From Pelagibacterales bacterium SAG-MED48 (GTDB taxonomy: Bacteria; Pseudomonadota; Alphaproteobacteria; Pelagibacterales; Pelagibacteraceae): DNA of 64,000 bases. This document shows positions 20,280 through 60,923 of this stretch, in pieces. Position 1 is the stretch's first letter. The number at the start of each line of letters is the position of its first letter. A program made the translations under genes and the position numbers. Where the stretch lies: the NCBI GenBank assembly GCA_014653375.1, contig JACWEP010000004.1, positions 1 to 64,000 of the forward strand, read 5' to 3'. The notes under the pieces are model-generated. The model saw only the letters and a program-made list of their open reading frames with translations, did not search any database and was not told the DNA's origin.

Positions 20280-20804
20280 ATGTTAAAGCTAAGATTATCA
20301 AGAGGTGGAACAAAGAAACGTCCTGTTTACAAAGTTGTTGTAGCAGATAGCCGTTTTGCAAGAGATGGTAGATTTATTGAGAAAGTGGGATTTTTTAACC
20401 CTCTTTTACCTAAAGATAAAAAAGAAAGAGTTGGTCTTGAGGCCGAGAGAATTAAGTATTGGTTAGGTCAAGGTGCTCAACCAACAAGTAGGGTTGCAAG
20501 AATTTTAGGAGAAAATGAATTAATGCCAATGCCTGCAAATGGAAATAATCCCCAAAAAGCTGTCCCTAAAAAAGAAAGAAAAAAAGGAGGTGAAGAAGCT
20601 CCAGCAGCAGCTCCTAAAGCAGCAGAAGCGGCACCAGCAGCACCAGCAGCAGAAGCTCCTAAAGAAGAAGCTCCAGCGGCAGAAGCGGCACCAGCAGCAG
20701 AAGCTCCTAAAGCAGCAGAAGCTCCTAAAGAAGAAGCTCCAGCAGCAGAAGCTCCTAAAGAAGAAGCTCCAGCAGCAGAAGCTCCTAAAGAAGAACAAAA
20801 ATAA
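20280..20804 (+). CDS. rpsP: 30S ribosomal protein S16 with long Ala/Glu/Pro/Lys repeat tail
   Basis: The first 84 residues are a standard S16 ([20 protein letters not shown] start, [14 protein letters not shown]). They are followed by a Lys-rich linker (residues 92-103) and a 70-residue tail made of APA and EAPKEE units, giving 174 residues where the family usually has 80-100. S16 is an assembly protein of the small subunit. The tail is encoded partly by perfect 30-bp tandem repeats. Similar low-complexity tails on S16 occur in some alphaproteobacteria, and I regard the tail as genuine and in frame. A good AAGGAG site lies about 6-10 bases upstream of the ATG. Confidence 0.95.
20649..20795 (+). 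repeat. 30-bp tandem repeats encoding the S16 tail
   Basis: Two perfect tandem copies of a 30-bp unit (20715-20744 and 20745-20774) are followed by a 21-base partial copy (20775-20795). Another copy with a single mismatch lies at 20649-20678. Each unit encodes [11 protein letters not shown] 29/30 match to the same unit occurs in rplS at 21945-21974, in direct orientation. Confidence 0.9.
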
Positions 20805-21505: not shown

Positions 21506-21521
21506 TTTGATAAATATAAAC

Positions 21522-22061
21522 ATGAAAACAATTGAAGAAATAAACTTACATAACGTAAAAAAAATACTTGCAGAGAAAAAAATCCCAGAATTTTATCCTG
21601 GTGATGTGGTTAAAGTTGGAGTTAGAATTACTGAAGGTAAAAAAGAAAGAATTCAATATTTTGAAGGTGTTTGTATTGCAAAAAAAAGTAGGGATTTAAA
21701 CTCATCTTTTACTGTAAGAAAAATTTCTTTTGGTGAAGGTGTTGAAAGAACTTTTCCCCTGTATGGAACGTTAATTGATTCAATTAAAGTAATTAGATCA
21801 GGTAAAGTTAGAAGAGCAAAATTATATTACCTAAGAGATAGAACTGGTAAATCAGCAAGAATTGCAGAAAAGATAAGAAAAAAAATTGGTATAGATGTTG
21901 ATGTTAAACCTGAAACTGTTACAGAGGAAAATGTAGCACCAGTAGCAGAGGCTCCTAAAGAAGAAGCTCCAGCAGTAGAAGCGGCACCAACAACAGAAGC
22001 TCCGGTAACTGAAGCACCAAAAGACGAACAAAAATCAGAAGGTTCTTCAGAAAAAAAATAA
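21522..22061 (+). CDS. rplS: 50S ribosomal protein L19 with acidic repeat tail
   Basis: 179 residues from ATG 21522 ([16 protein letters not shown]); an upstream in-frame TTG at 21507 is less likely. The L19 core (about residues 1-122) shows [13 protein letters not shown], the [13 protein letters not shown] segment, and the [14 protein letters not shown] end. A tail of about 55 residues follows, rich in Ala, Glu, Pro and Thr ([10 protein letters not shown] and similar). Its DNA is nearly the same as the rpsP tail repeat. L19 lies at the 30S-50S interface in the large subunit. Typical L19 proteins end soon after the core. Confidence 0.94.
21945..22004 (+). repeat. Copy of the rpsP tail repeat inside rplS
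   Basis: These 60 bases match rpsP 20649-20708 at 54 positions by direct reading, in the same reading frame and orientation, about 1.3 kb downstream. The first 30 bases match the rpsP tandem unit at 29 of 30. trmD lies between the two copies. Confidence 0.85.
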
Positions 22062-25206: not shown

Positions 25207-26970
25207 ATGCCAAATTATACTGCACCAGTAGAAGATATGTTATTTCTCTTTGAAAAATTAAGAGACAATAAAAATTACAATGAACTAGAAAAATATAATG
25301 AAGTTAGTTCAGATTTAGTAAAAGATATTTTAGAGGAAGCTGCAAAAATAAATCAAAACCTTATATTACCATTAGCAATTGCTGGAGATGAAAATCCTGC
25401 TAAATTAGAAAATGGCGTTGTTAGAACCCCACCGGGTTATAAAGAAGCATACAGTAAATATATTGAAGATGGATGGGTTTCGTTATCTTGTGATCCAAAA
25501 TATGGGGGTCAAGGTATGCCCAAAACAGTCAGTGCATTTTTTGATGAAATGTTATCTGCAACTTCACTTTCATTTAAACTTTATAGTGAATTAACTATAG
25601 GCGCCTATAATTGTATTTTACGGCATGCAACTGACGAAATGAAAGATAAGTATCTTCCAAAAATGGTTGAAGGTAAATGGAGTGGAACAATGTGCTTAAC
25701 AGAGCCAGTTTGTGGAACTGATTTAGGAATGTTAAAAACAAAAGCTGTAGAACAATCTGATGGAACCCATAAGATTAGTGGACAAAAAATATTTATAACA
25801 TCTGGTGATCAAGATCTTACAGAAAATATTATTCATCTTGTTATTGCAAGAGCATCAGACTCACCTCCTGGAACTAAAGGGATAAGTTTATTTCTTGTGC
25901 CTAAATTTGTAGTCAAAGATGATGGATCGATTGGTACCAGAAATGGAGTATCTACTGGTTCAGTAGAGCACAAGATGGGAATTAAAGGTTCCGCAACATG
26001 TGTATTAAATTTTGATGATGCAGTTGGGTATATGATTGGGCCAAAAAATAAAGGTCTAAGTCAAATGTTTACCATGATGAATTTAGAAAGAATAATAGTT
26101 GGAGTTCAAGGTTTAGGAATTTCTGAAATTGCGTACCAAAATTCACTTAGCTATGCCAAAGAGAGAAAACAAGGAAAAACAAATAACTCAAAATCCACAA
26201 ATGGAGCTGATTTTATTATTGAACACGCTGATATTAGAAAATCACTACTAAACATGAAATCTATTATTGAAAGTGAAAGAGCTTTATGTTTTTGGCTTTC
26301 TCAACAAACAGAAGTTAGTCTAAATCATCCAGACGAAAAAATTAAACAAGAGGCTTCAGATTATGTGTCGTTAATGACACCAGTAGTAAAATCATTATTT
26401 ACAGATTTAGCAATGGAAATCACTAGTGATGCAATGCAAATTCATGGAGGATATGGCTTTACAAAAGACCAGGGTATTGAACAATTGTACCGTGATAATA
26501 GAATTACCCCAATTTATGAAGGTACAAATTCAGTTCAAGCTGCAGATTTAGTTTTTAGAAAACTATCGAATAAAAACGGAAATATAATTGGTAATTTTTT
26601 AGATATGATTAAAGCTGAGTGTGAAACTAACAATGAAAAAGTAAAAAGTTTTGCTAAGGAATTAAATTATTATATAGAGATTTTATCAAAGTTCACTGAT
26701 TGGATAAATGATAAAAGCAAAGAAGAAAAAGATGATGTCAGTGCTGCAGCAAACGACTATTTAAAAACACTAGGATTTGTATCTTTAGCTTATTCCTGGA
26801 TTAAAATCTTAAAGGTAAGCTTTAATGATTATGATACTAATAAAGATTTCTATGATGATAAAATTAATACAGCAAAATTCTTTTTTGATAAAGTATTACC
26901 TAGAGCTGAATATCATTATAAATCAGCACTATCTGGAAGTTCAAATATAATGAACTTTAAATTCAATTAG
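25207..26970 (+). CDS. dmdC: Acyl-CoA dehydrogenase, probable 3-methylmercaptopropionyl-CoA dehydrogenase DmdC
   Basis: A 587-residue flavin acyl-CoA dehydrogenase of the long type, which has an N-terminal extension and an extra C-terminal helical domain. Visible are the CLTEPVCGTDLG substrate block, IFITSGD, the MQIHGGYGFTKDQG segment and the catalytic YEGTN (Glu438). Known DmdC enzymes belong to this long group and oxidise methylmercaptopropionyl-CoA to methylthioacryloyl-CoA in DMSP demethylation. The assignment rests on the neighbours: DmdB-like ligase 2 bp downstream and DmdA three genes on. By itself it could be a general acyl-CoA dehydrogenase. Confidence 0.85.
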   Translation: MPNYTAPVEDMLFLFEKLRDNKNYNELEKYNEVSSDLVKDILEEAAKINQNLILPLAIAGDENPAKLENGVVRTPPGYKEAYSKYIEDGWVSLSCDPKYGGQGMPKTVSAFFDEMLSATSLSFKLYSELTIGAYNCILRHATDEMKDKYLPKMVEGKWSGTMCLTEPVCGTDLGMLKTKAVEQSDGTHKISGQKIFITSGDQDLTENIIHLVIARASDSPPGTKGISLFLVPKFVVKDDGSIGTRNGVSTGSVEHKMGIKGSATCVLNFDDAVGYMIGPKNKGLSQMFTMMNLERIIVGVQGLGISEIAYQNSLSYAKERKQGKTNNSKSTNGADFIIEHADIRKSLLNMKSIIESERALCFWLSQQTEVSLNHPDEKIKQEASDYVSLMTPVVKSLFTDLAMEITSDAMQIHGGYGFTKDQGIEQLYRDNRITPIYEGTNSVQAADLVFRKLSNKNGNIIGNFLDMIKAECETNNEKVKSFAKELNYYIEILSKFTDWINDKSKEEKDDVSAAANDYLKTLGFVSLAYSWIKILKVSFNDYDTNKDFYDDKINTAKFFFDKVLPRAEYHYKSALSGSSNIMNFKFN

Positions 26971-26972
26971 TT

Positions 26973-28589
26973 ATGAGCAGTTACGATACGAATTTAGATA
27001 AAAATTCAGCAAATTATGTTCCTCTTACACCGTTAACTTTTTTAGAGAGAGCCAAAGATATATATCCTAACTATGAGGCCATAGTTTATGAGGATAGAAG
27101 CTATACTTGGAGCAAAGTTTATAAAAGAGCTATAAAATTTGCTAGTGCACTAGAAAAAATTGGTATCAAAAAAGGAGATACAGTTTCGTTTTTAGCTTTT
27201 AATACACCAGAAATTTTTGAAGCTCATTACTCAGTTCCAATGACGGGTGGTGTTTTAAATACGATAAACATCAGATTGGATGCTAATACAATTGCATATA
27301 TTTTAGAACATAGCGAAGCAAAAGTTCTTGTTGTAGATAGACAATTGCACACTGAAGTAAAAAAGGCTTTAAAAATTTTAGATAAAAAAATTATTGTTAT
27401 CGACATAAATGATAAACATGCAGATCAGTCAAAATTAGAAAAAATTGGTGATCTAGAATATGAAAGTTTTTTAAATACAGGTGATGAAAATTATATTTAT
27501 AAAATGCCTAATGATGAATGGCAGGCAATATCATTAAGTTATACGTCAGGTACTACTGGGAATCCAAAAGGAGTTGTTTACCATCATAGAGGCTCATATT
27601 TAATGTCAACGGGTAGTGCAGTTGCATGGAATATGCCAAATAGACTAAATTTTCTAACAATTGTACCCATGTTTCATTGTAATGGATGGTGCTATCCATG
27701 GACTATTGCAATGTTAAATGGAAGAACTATTTGTCTGAGAAATATTGATGTCAAAAAGATTTTTGAATTAATTGATAAATATAATGTAACTCACTTTGGT
27801 GGAGCACCAATTATATTAAATATGATTACAGGAGCACCAGAGAGTGATCGAAAAGAATTAAAACAAAAAGTTCATGTATTAACAGCAGGAGCTCCTCCAC
27901 CAAGTATAATTTTTAAAAAAATGAAAAATCTTGGTTTTGAGGTGATGCATGTTTATGGTTTAACAGAAACTTATGGTCATGTTACTCAATGTGCATGGAA
28001 TGATGAATGGAATGAATTTGATGAAGATAAACAGAATGAAATTAAAGCAAGACAAGGTGTAAGATATCCTAACACTGAAGGTGTGACGGTTATGGACCCC
28101 GAAACAATGAAGGAAGTTCCTTATGATGGTAAAACTATCGGTGAAATAATGATAAGAGGCAATGTTGTAATGAAAGGATATTTTAAAGATAAAGGTGCAA
28201 CTGACAAGGCCATGGCGGGTGGCTGGTTTCATTCAGGAGATTTAGCAGTTATGCATCCAGACGGATATGTCAAAATACAAGATAGATCTAAAGATATAAT
28301 TATTTCAGGAGGCGAAAACATATCATCAATAGAAATAGAGAATACTCTTTCTAAACATCCTTCAGTCTCTATTGCTGCAGTAGTAGCTAAACCAGATGAA
28401 AAATGGGGAGAAGTACCTTGTGCTTTTATTGAAATGGTTAGCGATAAGCCCACTACTGAAAAAGAGCTAATTGATTTTTGTAAGGAAACGTTAGCTGGTT
28501 TTAAAGTTCCAAAACAAGTAATTTTTTGTGAGTTGCCAAAAACATCTACAGGAAAAATTCAAAAATTTGAATTAAGAAAACAATTCTAG
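26973..28589 (+). CDS. dmdB: AMP-forming acyl-CoA ligase, probable 3-methylmercaptopropionate:CoA ligase DmdB
   Basis: A 538-residue adenylate-forming enzyme. The P-loop-like SYTSGTTGNPKGV lies near residues 189-201. MHVYGLTETYG, the GWFHSGDLAV hinge region with DRSKDIIISGGENIS, and the C-terminal catalytic Lys in KTSTGKIQKFELRK are all present. Known DmdB ligates CoA to methylmercaptopropionate, the product of DmdA. The gene lies 2 bp after the dmdC-like gene. The ligase family is certain; the DMSP role comes from the cluster. It may also accept other short- or medium-chain acids. Confidence 0.87.
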   Translation: MSSYDTNLDKNSANYVPLTPLTFLERAKDIYPNYEAIVYEDRSYTWSKVYKRAIKFASALEKIGIKKGDTVSFLAFNTPEIFEAHYSVPMTGGVLNTINIRLDANTIAYILEHSEAKVLVVDRQLHTEVKKALKILDKKIIVIDINDKHADQSKLEKIGDLEYESFLNTGDENYIYKMPNDEWQAISLSYTSGTTGNPKGVVYHHRGSYLMSTGSAVAWNMPNRLNFLTIVPMFHCNGWCYPWTIAMLNGRTICLRNIDVKKIFELIDKYNVTHFGGAPIILNMITGAPESDRKELKQKVHVLTAGAPPPSIIFKKMKNLGFEVMHVYGLTETYGHVTQCAWNDEWNEFDEDKQNEIKARQGVRYPNTEGVTVMDPETMKEVPYDGKTIGEIMIRGNVVMKGYFKDKGATDKAMAGGWFHSGDLAVMHPDGYVKIQDRSKDIIISGGENISSIEIENTLSKHPSVSIAAVVAKPDEKWGEVPCAFIEMVSDKPTTEKELIDFCKETLAGFKVPKQVIFCELPKTSTGKIQKFELRKQF

Positions 28590-28597
28590 GTAATTAC

Positions 28598-29374
28598 TTG
28601 ATATTTCAGATAGAAAATAAAAATGTTCATGCATCAGATTCTGGGCAAGGTATTGATAGCAAGAAGGATACTATAATATTTCTTCATGGAAGTGGTCTTT
28701 CACATGTTGTCTGGTCTTTAGCTGAACAATTTTTTTCAAATAAAAATTTTAATGTTTTATCACTTGATTTACCTGGTCATGGTAATTCAGATGGCCCTTG
28801 TTTGGATACAATTGAAAAAATTGCTGATTGGCTAGAAAGTGTACTAGTAGAACTAGATTTAAAAACGGTAACACTTATTGGCCACTCTCAAGGGTGTTTA
28901 GAAATATTAGAGTATGCTCATAAATACAAAAATAGGCTTAAAAAGTTAGTTTTTATCGGAGGGTCATATCGGATGCCAGTTAATCAAGATCTTATAGATC
29001 TTGCAAAAAATGGCGATTCTGATGCTGTTAAACTAATGATGAAATGGGGATTTAAAGACCCAAAAAGATTCATAGGAGGTAATCCAGTTGAAAAAATTAT
29101 CCAATCTCCAAGAGATATAAGTGAAATATTAGCGGTCGATCTCGTTGCATGCAATAATTACGTCAACGGTTCAAATGCAGCAAAGGAATTAGATTGTCCG
29201 ACGATGTTTGTTTTGGGATCAGACGACAAGATGTGTAATTTAGAATTTGGAAAAAAATTTGCAAATTTGGTTAATAATTCAATCACTCATGTGATAGATG
29301 ATTGTGGGCATATGATTATGATTGAAAAAGCCTTTGAAATGAGAGAGAAAGTCCTAGAATTTTTAAAAAAATGA
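28598..29374 (+). CDS. Alpha/beta hydrolase within the DMSP demethylation cluster
   Basis: A 258-residue cytosolic alpha/beta hydrolase. It starts at TTG 28598 ([13 protein letters not shown]), since no suitable ATG exists before the first conserved strand. [11 protein letters not shown] forms the oxyanion region, GHSQG holds the nucleophile Ser97, and Asp209 or Asp210 (LGSDD) and His238 (DCGHM) complete the triad. It overlaps dmdA by 4 bp (ATGA). No DmdD (crotonase-type methylthioacryloyl-CoA hydratase) is in the cluster, so this hydrolase might act on a thioester of the pathway. That is inference; the fold also covers esterases and C-C hydrolases. Confidence 0.8.
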
Positions 29375-30480
29375 AAAACTTTCCAATAGCTAAATCAAGA
29401 AGACTAAGAAGCACCCCTTATACTGATAGAATTGAAAGACAAGGAGTAAGCTCATACACCGTCTATAATCACATGCTGCTACCAGCATCATTTGTTTCAG
29501 TAGAGGCAGATTATCATCATTTAAAAGAATTTGTTCAAGTTTGGGATGTTGCAGCTGAAAGACAAGTTGAGATTTCGGGAAAACATTCTGCTAAATTAGT
29601 TCAGTTAATGACATGTAGAGATTTATCAAAATCTAAAGTTGGAAAATGTTATTATGCACCAATAATTGATGGACATGGAAATTTAGTTAATGACCCTATT
29701 ATCAATAAATTAGCTGAAGATAGATGGTGGCTGTCTATTGCAGACTCTGATGTTATTTTTTTTGCAAAAGGTCTTGCTTCAGGTAATAAATTTGATGTTA
29801 AAATAAAAGAACCAAACGTAAATATTTTAGCTGTTCAAGGTCCTCTTTCAGACAAATTGATGTCAAAAGTATTTGGGGAAAAAATCTGTCAGTTAAAATT
29901 TTTCAATTTTGATTATTTTGAGTTTAGAGGTGTAAAGCATTTTATAGCCAGATCAGGCTGGTCAAAACAAGGTGGTTTTGAAATTTATGTTGAAGACTCT
30001 GAGGCAGGAAAAGATCTTTATGATTTTTTATTTGAAGCAGGTTCAGAATTTAATGTTAAACCTGGTTGTCCAAACTTAATTGAAAGAATTGAAAGTGCGC
30101 TTCTTTCTTATGGAAATGATTTTGATAATAGAGACAATCCTTTTGAGGCGAATTTTGAAAAATATACCAATTTAGATAGTGACGTAGAATTTTTAGGCAA
30201 AGAAAGATTAAAAAAAATTAGAGAAGAAGGAACAACAAGAAAATTAATGGGAGTTAAAATTGATCACGATCAAATTGATATGTATTGTGAAAAAACTCTG
30301 TTTGACGATAATAATAATATTATCGGTTTTGTAAGATCTGCCACTTATTCACCAACCTTTAAAAAGGTGATTGGTATAGCAATGATTAACAAACCTTATT
30401 GGAATTCAACTAATTCATTTAAAATTGAGATAAATGAAAAGATTCATTTAGGAACTATTTGCGAATTACCCTTCATTTAG
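29371..30480 (+). CDS. dmdA: Dimethylsulfoniopropionate demethylase DmdA
   Basis: A 369-residue GcvT-fold methyltransferase. The N-terminus ([18 protein letters not shown]), the [15 protein letters not shown] block, the [16 protein letters not shown] block and [17 protein letters not shown] agree closely with the SAR11 DmdA that I remember, which has the same length. DmdA moves a methyl group from DMSP to tetrahydrofolate, giving methylmercaptopropionate and 5-methyl-THF. Ordinary glycine-cleavage T proteins lack these blocks. It ends the dmdC-dmdB-hydrolase-dmdA cluster; asd follows after 19 bp. This is the first step of the demethylation pathway, although its gene is last. Confidence 0.95.
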
Positions 30481-34801: not shown

Positions 34802-37268
<2,467 letters not shown>

Positions 37269-59792: not shown

Positions 59793-60923
59793 TTAATTTT
59801 CTGTATAAGATTTATCTAAAAAATTTTTAAGTGAATTTAAAAAATTTGGAACATCAAGTAAGAATGAGTCATGTCCTTTGTCTGACTCAATTTCAACAAA
59901 ACCTACATCAGCACCAATAGCGTTTAAAGCAATTACGATATCTTTATTTTCCTGAGTTGGGTAAAGCCAATCTGAAGTGAAAGATATTATAAAAAATTTA
60001 GCTTCAGTTTCTTTAAAAGCATCTGATAAATTTCCTTTAAATTGCTTTCCTAAATCAAAGTAATCCATAGCTCTAGTAATATAAAGGTAGCTGTTAGCAT
60101 CAAATCTATCCACAAAAACTGATCCTTGATATCTAAGATAGCTTTCAATTTGAAAATCTGCATCAAAACTAAATTTAATTTCCTCTCTCTCTTGTAGTTT
60201 TCTTCCAAATTTTTCCTGAAGACTTTTTTTTGAAAGATATGTTATATGGGCAGCCATTCTTGCAACAGCCAAACCTCTATTTGGAACAGTTTCTTTAGTA
60301 TTGTAGTTTCCTTCGTTCCAATTGTTGTCCGCAGTAATTGCTTGTCTACCAAGTTCATTGAATGCAATATTTTGAGCTGAATGACTAGAGGTGCATGCAA
60401 TAGGAATTACAGTTTTAGCTTTATCTGGAAAATTGCTAATAAATTGAAGAACTTGCATGCCTCCCATGGATCCACCAACAACAGAAAAAAGTTTTTCTAT
60501 TCCAAAGTGATCAAGTAAATTATTCTGTGCATTGACCATATCATTGATAGTGATTACTGGAAAATTAGTACCTAAAATTTTTTGTGTATTAGGATCTTTA
60601 TGACTTGGTCCAAATGAACCCATACATCCACCAATTACATTTGAACAAATTATAAAATACTTATTAGTATCAATTGCTTTATCTGGACCTACCGCATAGG
60701 ACCACCAACCATCTTTATTTGTAATTGGATTTAGACCAGTTACAAATTGATCACCCGTTAGTGCATGAAAGATTAAAATAGCATTATCTTTGTTTTTATT
60801 TAATGACCCATAAGTTTCATAAGCAATTGGAAAATTATTAATTGTTTTTCCACAATCTAGTTTTAGTGGTTTTTTAACTATTAGAGTTTTTAAATTTATC
60901 TCTGTATTCATAATAAAAGTCAT
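59793..60923 (-). CDS. metX: Homoserine O-acyltransferase MetX
   Basis: A 376-residue alpha/beta-hydrolase-fold acyltransferase. FHALTGDQF is the oxyanion region, [11 protein letters not shown] holds the nucleophile Ser, and [12 protein letters not shown] and [11 protein letters not shown] supply Asp and His. It activates homoserine by acyl transfer (acetyl or succinyl) for methionine synthesis. ATG 60923 and ATG 60911 (MNTEINLK) are both possible starts; no Shine-Dalgarno separates them. A SAM-II riboswitch and a promoter lie directly upstream. Forms an operon with metW and gloB. Confidence 0.96.

Follow-up and report, generated by a model that had tools for sequence, protein, structure and literature searches.

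SAR11 bacteria rank among the sea's most abundant cell types; they have no assimilatory sulfate reduction and therefore depend on reduced sulfur such as dimethylsulfoniopropionate (DMSP). In the Ruegeria pomeroyi-type pathway, DMSP is handled by DmdA, DmdB, DmdC, and DmdD. The last of these is a crotonase with two activities: it hydrates methylthioacryloyl-coenzyme A (CoA), after which methanethiol leaves spontaneously, and it hydrolyzes the CoA ester (PMC3660561). Another crotonase, AcuH, is reported to be able to act on methylthioacryloyl-CoA (PMC5395565, PMC12262181), and methanethiol is condensed with O-acetylhomoserine by MetY or MetC (PMC5069961). DmdD orthologs are reported absent from Candidatus Pelagibacter ubique, for which alternate enzymes were hypothesized in 2016 to carry out the methanethiol step (PMC5069961). 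A figure legend in PMC3160333 lists dmdA, mhpC (an α/β hydrolase), fadD, and mmgC among SAR11 Ia genes; in the available text of that paper, mhpC is mentioned once, in that legend, and no role is given. Here we analyze a cluster of the same four gene kinds in the first 64,000 nucleotides of contig JACWEP010000004.1 of Pelagibacterales bacterium SAG-MED48 (the window), concentrating on its α/β hydrolase, which we name HYD. Our best guess is that HYD acts on a CoA thioester of the demethylation pathway.

Results

The open reading frames of the window confirm four consecutive genes on the + strand, in the order dmdC-dmdB-hydrolase-dmdA: a dmdC-like acyl-CoA dehydrogenase (25207..26970, 587 amino acids, aa), a dmdB-like acyl-CoA ligase (26973..28589, 538 aa), HYD (28598..29374, 258 aa, with a TTG start), and dmdA, encoding the DMSP demethylase (29371..30480, 369 aa). 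The packing is tight, with 2 bp between dmdC and dmdB, 8 bp between dmdB and HYD, and a 4-bp ATGA overlap between HYD and dmdA, as a sequence-only reading of the window had described. This arrangement is real and already in print, without a function, although metY and FadB, on which much of what follows turns, lie outside the passage that lists it (PMC3160333). The adjacency of HYD and dmdA is not due to chance, as the two genes are neighbors in every one of the 35 genomes of the window's SAR11 genus (g1) that have HYD at the locus. Like the Ruegeria pomeroyi-type system, the window combines a DmdA scoring over the curated cut-off with DmdB and DmdC homologs in one operon. In contrast to that system, the cluster has a serine hydrolase and no crotonase, while in deeper SAR11 genera a FadB-type crotonase heads the operon.

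The last gene is a clear dmdA, as had been claimed. Its product scores 554.9 bits with the curated DMSP demethylase model NCBIfam PRK12486 (cut-off 410), and its closest structure is PDB 3tfh (E 4.9e-181). The window genome (G000, in which the window is contig C34; 1.07 Mb, 75.6% complete) also carries a second DmdA-like gene (G000:C56:32254-33384, L088), 48% identical and, at 520.2 bits, likewise over the PRK12486 cut-off of 410. The DmdC-like protein shows Pfam acyl-CoA dehydrogenase domains, including an extra C-terminal PF12806, and matches over residues 1-582 PDB 6ijc (E 3e-144), a characterized DmdC; its top PDB hit is 8png (E 4.5e-164). The DmdB-like ligase passes the acyl-CoA synthetase model NCBIfam PRK08162 (861.8 bits, cut-off 677) and misses PRK07008 (338, cut-off 822), the equivalog for the CoA ligase of methylmercaptopropionate (MMPA). 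It matches PDB 6ihk (E 1.1e-75) and 6ijb (E 7.5e-75), both DmdB structures, and 1ult is nearer. The dmdB and dmdC labels are thus putative assignments by homology and SAR11 synteny, the dmdB label being the looser of the two.

HYD is a PF00561 α/β hydrolase with an intact catalytic triad. The Ser97 and His238 named by the sequence-only reading are indeed present, Asp210 completes the triad, and all 148 rows of the alignment, in which the window protein is counted twice, retain the three residues. DmdD and AcuH have a crotonase fold, and DmdD two catalytic Glu residues, whereas HYD has the PF00561 fold with Ser-Asp-His; it can be at most analogous to these enzymes, not a member of their family. 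Although its fold and triad are common with MetX, BphD, and PcaD, HYD reaches no NCBIfam cut-off among the matches listed (25 of 29), including that of the BphD (MhpC-like C-C hydrolase) equivalog (61.1 vs. 462.15 bits) and that of the MetX model PRK08775 (24.1 vs. 296 bits, with 258 aa in HYD against 351 model positions). We considered whether HYD could be a missing MetX (homoserine acetyltransferase) and rejected this because a separate metX-like homoserine O-acetyltransferase gene is encoded in the window (59817..60875, - strand; TIGR01392, 460.6 bits, under the cut-off of 500) and in most genomes of the family. MetX-model matches at E 0.001 or better occur in 177 of 197 family genomes, mostly at ~440-467 bits and some of them weak (e.g., in G154 and G102); the 500-bit cut-off is reached by none of the 197 and by none of 14 control genomes. 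The structure of HYD is predicted with confidence (predicted local distance difference test score, 95.3). Two fold-comparison programs find enol-lactonase, haloperoxidase, and esterase folds closest to the model, the nearest being the enol-lactonase 2xua (Z 33.6, root-mean-square deviation 2.0, 252 residues aligned), and no thioesterase is among the 50 listed matches from either program.

HYD and DmdA were searched separately in 197 genomes of the family, of which 51 belong to g1. HYD lies in the dmd operon (HYD_A) in 35 of the 51, the copy in G168 being a pseudogene. Another 14 have a relative that is 42-45% identical (HYD_B) and lies elsewhere, with dmdA present and no HYD at the dmd locus. 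Both forms never occur together (0 of 51), and two genomes, G172 and G178, have neither. The co-occurrence of hydrolase and dmdA, which the sequence-only reading had suggested checking across SAR11, breaks down at the locus in these 14 genomes, where the relative stands behind metY instead. The gap between dmdB and dmdA measures 10-106 bp in the 15 g1 dmdA loci without HYD_A (the 14 HYD_B genomes and G172). HYD_B directly follows a metY-type gene (metY-B), with a 4-bp overlap, in 14 of 14 genomes; the one metY-B scanned against NCBIfam passes PRK08134 (655 vs. 636 bits), and 8 of the 14 HYD_B stretches hold no other metY beside metY-B. In another sample, of 61 g1 genomes and partly shared with the first, metY-B occurs in 15, with HYD_B right behind it each time. 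No HYD was seen behind a metY other than metY-B in the 15 loci read, which include the window genome; its metY is at G000:C26, and its HYD is between dmdB and dmdA, not beside metY. A SAM-V riboswitch precedes the metY that is not metY-B in 3 of 3 loci searched, and none was found before metY-B in three loci searched. Behind many HYD_B copies stands a 369-aa gene (L082:6325-7434) for which neither Pfam nor NCBIfam gave a match at our thresholds.

Start codons, chosen by script as those nearest to the profile start and with some genomes counted twice, are TTG in 100 of 113 SAR11 operon rows of HYD_A (GTG in 7, ATG in 6) and ATG in 7 of 7 for HYD_B. Mapped onto a 34-genome SdhA tree, HYD_A presence requires 5 changes, at least 4 of them forced by supported branches. 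In an independent-switch test, 4 independent pairs on well-supported branches place HYD_B on the side without HYD_A, and nearly all pairings show the two forms in opposition (the median p is 0.125, and 4 pairs cannot reach 0.05). Fisher p values were also computed, but they take no account of kinship and carry no weight here. As a plain count, the exclusion is clear; taken as a set of independent events, it is suggestive without being significant.

In other SAR11 genera, 26 fetched loci have both genes: HYD and dmdA lie side by side in 22, and in the other 4 a single oxidoreductase gene intervenes. Four g2 genomes (L053, L054, L055, and L090) have a 308-aa gene that separates the hydrolase from dmdA; the L053 version is Gfo/Idh-like. 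dmdB and the hydrolase remain, with no dmdA directly behind the hydrolase, in L073, L075, and L076. Three genomes that are 66-75% complete (G121, G046, and G130) keep dmdB-HYD and have another gene where dmdA is expected; no close DmdA was found elsewhere in them.

DmdC was searched in 34 selected genomes. Of these, 27 are family members from outside g1 with a completeness of 90% or more and a contamination of 5% or less; the others are G054, G172, G178, G043, G413, G283, and G510. The HYD profile was run on all 34 and three more, and DmdA was counted at an identity of at least 52% (G178 has only a 49% relative). HYD is found in 10 of the 11 genomes with DmdC, the exception being G172, and in 0 of the 23 without it. 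Its presence agrees with that of DmdC in 33 of the 34 genomes and with that of DmdA in 31. G001 has DmdA, with DmdC and HYD both absent, and G054 (76% complete) has DmdC and HYD, with no DmdA, in the order FadB-dmdC-dmdB-HYD and with no metY adjacent. Since these two genomes and the dmdB-HYD loci of G121, G046, and G130 track DmdC or dmdB and not DmdA, HYD appears to follow the CoA branch of the pathway.

Outside SAR11, the constant partner of HYD is metY. A profile of 17 HYD_A and HYD_B proteins, run on 337 Alphaproteobacteria at a threshold of E 1e-45 or better, found the family in 89 genomes, with a single match in each. We read the loci of the 30 best of these 89 (3 from SAR11 and 27 others), and in 27 of the 27 non-SAR11 loci HYD is the next gene after metY, in the same orientation. 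Wider flanks, covering 20 of the 27, show FadB homologs (36-39%) adjoining metY-HYD in G553, G369, G464, G473, and G361, and DmdB-like ligases (52-54%) nearby in G516, G354, G320, and G420. A DmdA over the cut-off lies beside metY-HYD-FadB in G473 and G369, and the gene order in G413 is FadB-dmdB-metY-HYD. In a HYD tree of 61 rows, HYD_A is one fully supported clade and HYD_B groups with G413. The window HYD belongs to this metY-coupled family by its match to profile A1 (by construction, as HYD is a row of A1), its triad, and its single copy per genome, though it does not adjoin metY. Of the 337 genomes, 29 have a DmdA over the curated cut-off, and 21 of these also have HYD. HYD is commoner with DmdA (21 of 29 genomes vs. 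68 of 308, counts uncorrected for kinship); it is associated with DmdA but not tied to it.

The crotonase most regularly placed with these genes is FadB, which joins a 3-hydroxyacyl-CoA dehydrogenase to an enoyl-CoA hydratase (ECH) domain. It immediately precedes dmdC in 28 of the 28 non-g1 SAR11 loci that show both, and it is located elsewhere in g1 (in the window genome at G000:C56:18391-20610). Both catalytic Glu residues are kept in 46 of 47 FadB rows, two of which are the same G413 gene; the remaining row has an X at one site. Four genomes that are 95-98% complete (G088, G105, G156, and G180) have one weak ECH match each, and FadB in each. The stand-alone ECH of the window genome is without the second catalytic Glu. 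Because of its two Glu residues, its position in the operon, and the sole weak ECH match in these near-complete genomes, FadB would be the best hydratase candidate for methylthioacryloyl-CoA.

A crotonase encoded in operons of g2/g4 SAR11 was considered as a DmdD or canonical hydratase and rejected, both catalytic Glu being replaced (L033); it is of the PRK08139 type (381.8 vs. 313 bits). Several g2/g4 operons place an OsmC-like gene and a crotonase of this type between dmdB and the hydrolase (e.g., L033:6293-7555), and several g3-type operons hold a MetF-like gene that is below the model cut-off.

In the window, the cluster is part of a longer same-strand run, with leuCDB before it and asd, sdhCDAB, and mmsA after it. 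The product of mmsA (34802..36295, + strand) is a CoA-acylating (methyl)malonate-semialdehyde dehydrogenase (TIGR01722, 712.8 bits, cut-off 448.5), and the gene follows dmdA-asd-sdh in most of the g1 loci for which the flank read was long enough. Elsewhere in the window, the products of rpsP and rplS (20280-20804 and 21507-22061) have long C-terminal repeats rich in Ala, Pro, Glu, and Lys. At 36707-36753, Rfam gives a weak hit to an exoribonuclease-resistant RNA of plant viruses (32.2 vs. cut-off 31 bits, E 0.015), which is probably due to chance.

Discussion

As DmdD performs both hydration and CoA-ester hydrolysis, both activities need a carrier where DmdD is absent. Gene order, protein family, triad, co-occurrence, and the FadB glutamates lead us to infer a division of labor, to which we give a probability of about 35%. 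DmdA would make MMPA, which DmdB and DmdC would convert to methylthioacryloyl-CoA. A crotonase, most likely through the ECH domain of FadB, would hydrate the latter, and methanethiol would leave spontaneously, leaving malonate-semialdehyde-CoA. HYD would cleave the CoA thioester of this product, and MetY would take the methanethiol into methionine. Malonate semialdehyde could perhaps proceed to acetyl-CoA via MmsA, encoded a few genes downstream, as the MmsA enzyme family carries out this conversion. The step proposed for HYD corresponds to the second activity of DmdD (PMC3660561). The suggestion of the sequence-only reading that the hydrolase acts on a pathway thioester thus survives in part: HYD follows DmdC in the discordant genomes and shares an operon with FadB, DmdC, and DmdB, but its role as a stand-in for DmdD now looks weak.

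Several observations weigh against this division of labor. The HYD fold, as predicted, is that of a generic α/β hydrolase and does not reveal a substrate. G172 has DmdC and neither form of HYD, and in G168 HYD has decayed into a pseudogene. What sets DmdC ahead of DmdA comes down to two genomes, G001 and G054, and to three loci of genomes that are 66-75% complete. In G182, HYD-dmdA is kept without dmdB or dmdC at the locus (L314; the rest of that genome was not searched), the position of dmdB upstream being taken by a pilin-like gene, a regulator-like gene, and autotransporter genes. Across the class, 8 of the 29 genomes with DmdA are without HYD, and 68 of the 89 HYD genomes have no DmdA over the cut-off (DmdB and DmdC were not searched there). 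For the family as a whole, the hydrolase therefore occurs widely without dmdA, an outcome that the sequence-only reading had itself named as telling against it. Half of the wide-flank metY-HYD loci (10 of 20) have neither FadB nor a DmdB-like ligase (at least 50% identity). As for the hydratase, FadB is present in G178 without DmdC, and a stand-alone ECH is found in most g1 genomes as well, so that another crotonase could act.

The prominence of metY in these loci suggests a different role, the main alternative to the above, in which HYD serves MetY directly, by removing a side product or preparing a substrate (e.g., homocysteine thiolactone or an acyl-homoserine derivative), and owes its dmd position to an older FadB-dmdB-metY-HYD operon that lost metY. 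G413 has precisely this order, metY is the invariable neighbor in the non-SAR11 loci read and overlaps every HYD_B, the 10 loci without FadB or ligase keep metY-HYD, and the structure nearest to HYD is an enol-lactonase. We nevertheless find such a role somewhat less likely: HYD is in the dmd operon and away from metY in 35 g1 genomes, the metY genes other than metY-B are not followed by HYD in the 15 loci read, a SAM-V riboswitch was found before these genes and not before metY-B in the three loci of each that were searched, and G054 has FadB-dmdC-dmdB-HYD without an adjacent metY. HYD might also have an editing function, as a thioesterase that frees CoA from MMPA-CoA or methylthioacryloyl-CoA during pathway congestion; this is unlikely, as it would leave the constant metY link unexplained and as direct ester cleavage would presumably waste the ATP invested in the pathway. 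It would, however, account for the coupling of HYD to dmdB and dmdA, for the prevailing TTG start, which could mean low expression, and for the tolerated loss of HYD in G172 and G168.

Decidedly less credible is the original proposal of the sequence-only reading, that HYD takes the place of DmdD in releasing methanethiol from methylthioacryloyl-CoA. DmdD is indeed reported absent from Candidatus P. ubique (PMC5069961), and HYD adjoins dmdA. On chemical grounds, however, a serine hydrolase cleaving this CoA ester would not by itself release methanethiol and would leave methylthioacrylate, since release follows hydration (PMC3660561). FadB, a crotonase with both Glu residues, is present and is the better candidate, the published substitutes are crotonases such as AcuH (PMC5395565, PMC12262181), and 15 g1 dmdA loci do without HYD. 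Finally, HYD could be a passenger with an unrelated substrate in a convenient operon, which would suit its generic fold and patchy loss. We regard this as improbable in view of the single copy per genome in 89 Alphaproteobacteria, the fixed metY partner in the loci read, and its recurrent exchange between two positions within the same sulfur pathway (p 0.125 from 4 independent pairs).

The available text of the literature found, in which subscription journals are thinly covered, assigns no function to the SAR11 hydrolase and gives no account of its coupling to metY, of the exclusion between HYD_A and HYD_B, or of FadB as the operon's hydratase. Our analysis names two candidates for the methanethiol step, FadB for hydration and HYD for CoA-ester cleavage, and links HYD to MetY across the class. 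It is possible, and we put this forward tentatively, that in SAR11 and many Alphaproteobacteria the work of DmdD is split between a FadB crotonase and a dedicated hydrolase, with capture of methanethiol by MetY. If so, the hydrolase family would serve as a gene marker for a methanethiol-to-methionine module predating DMSP demethylation and independent of it.

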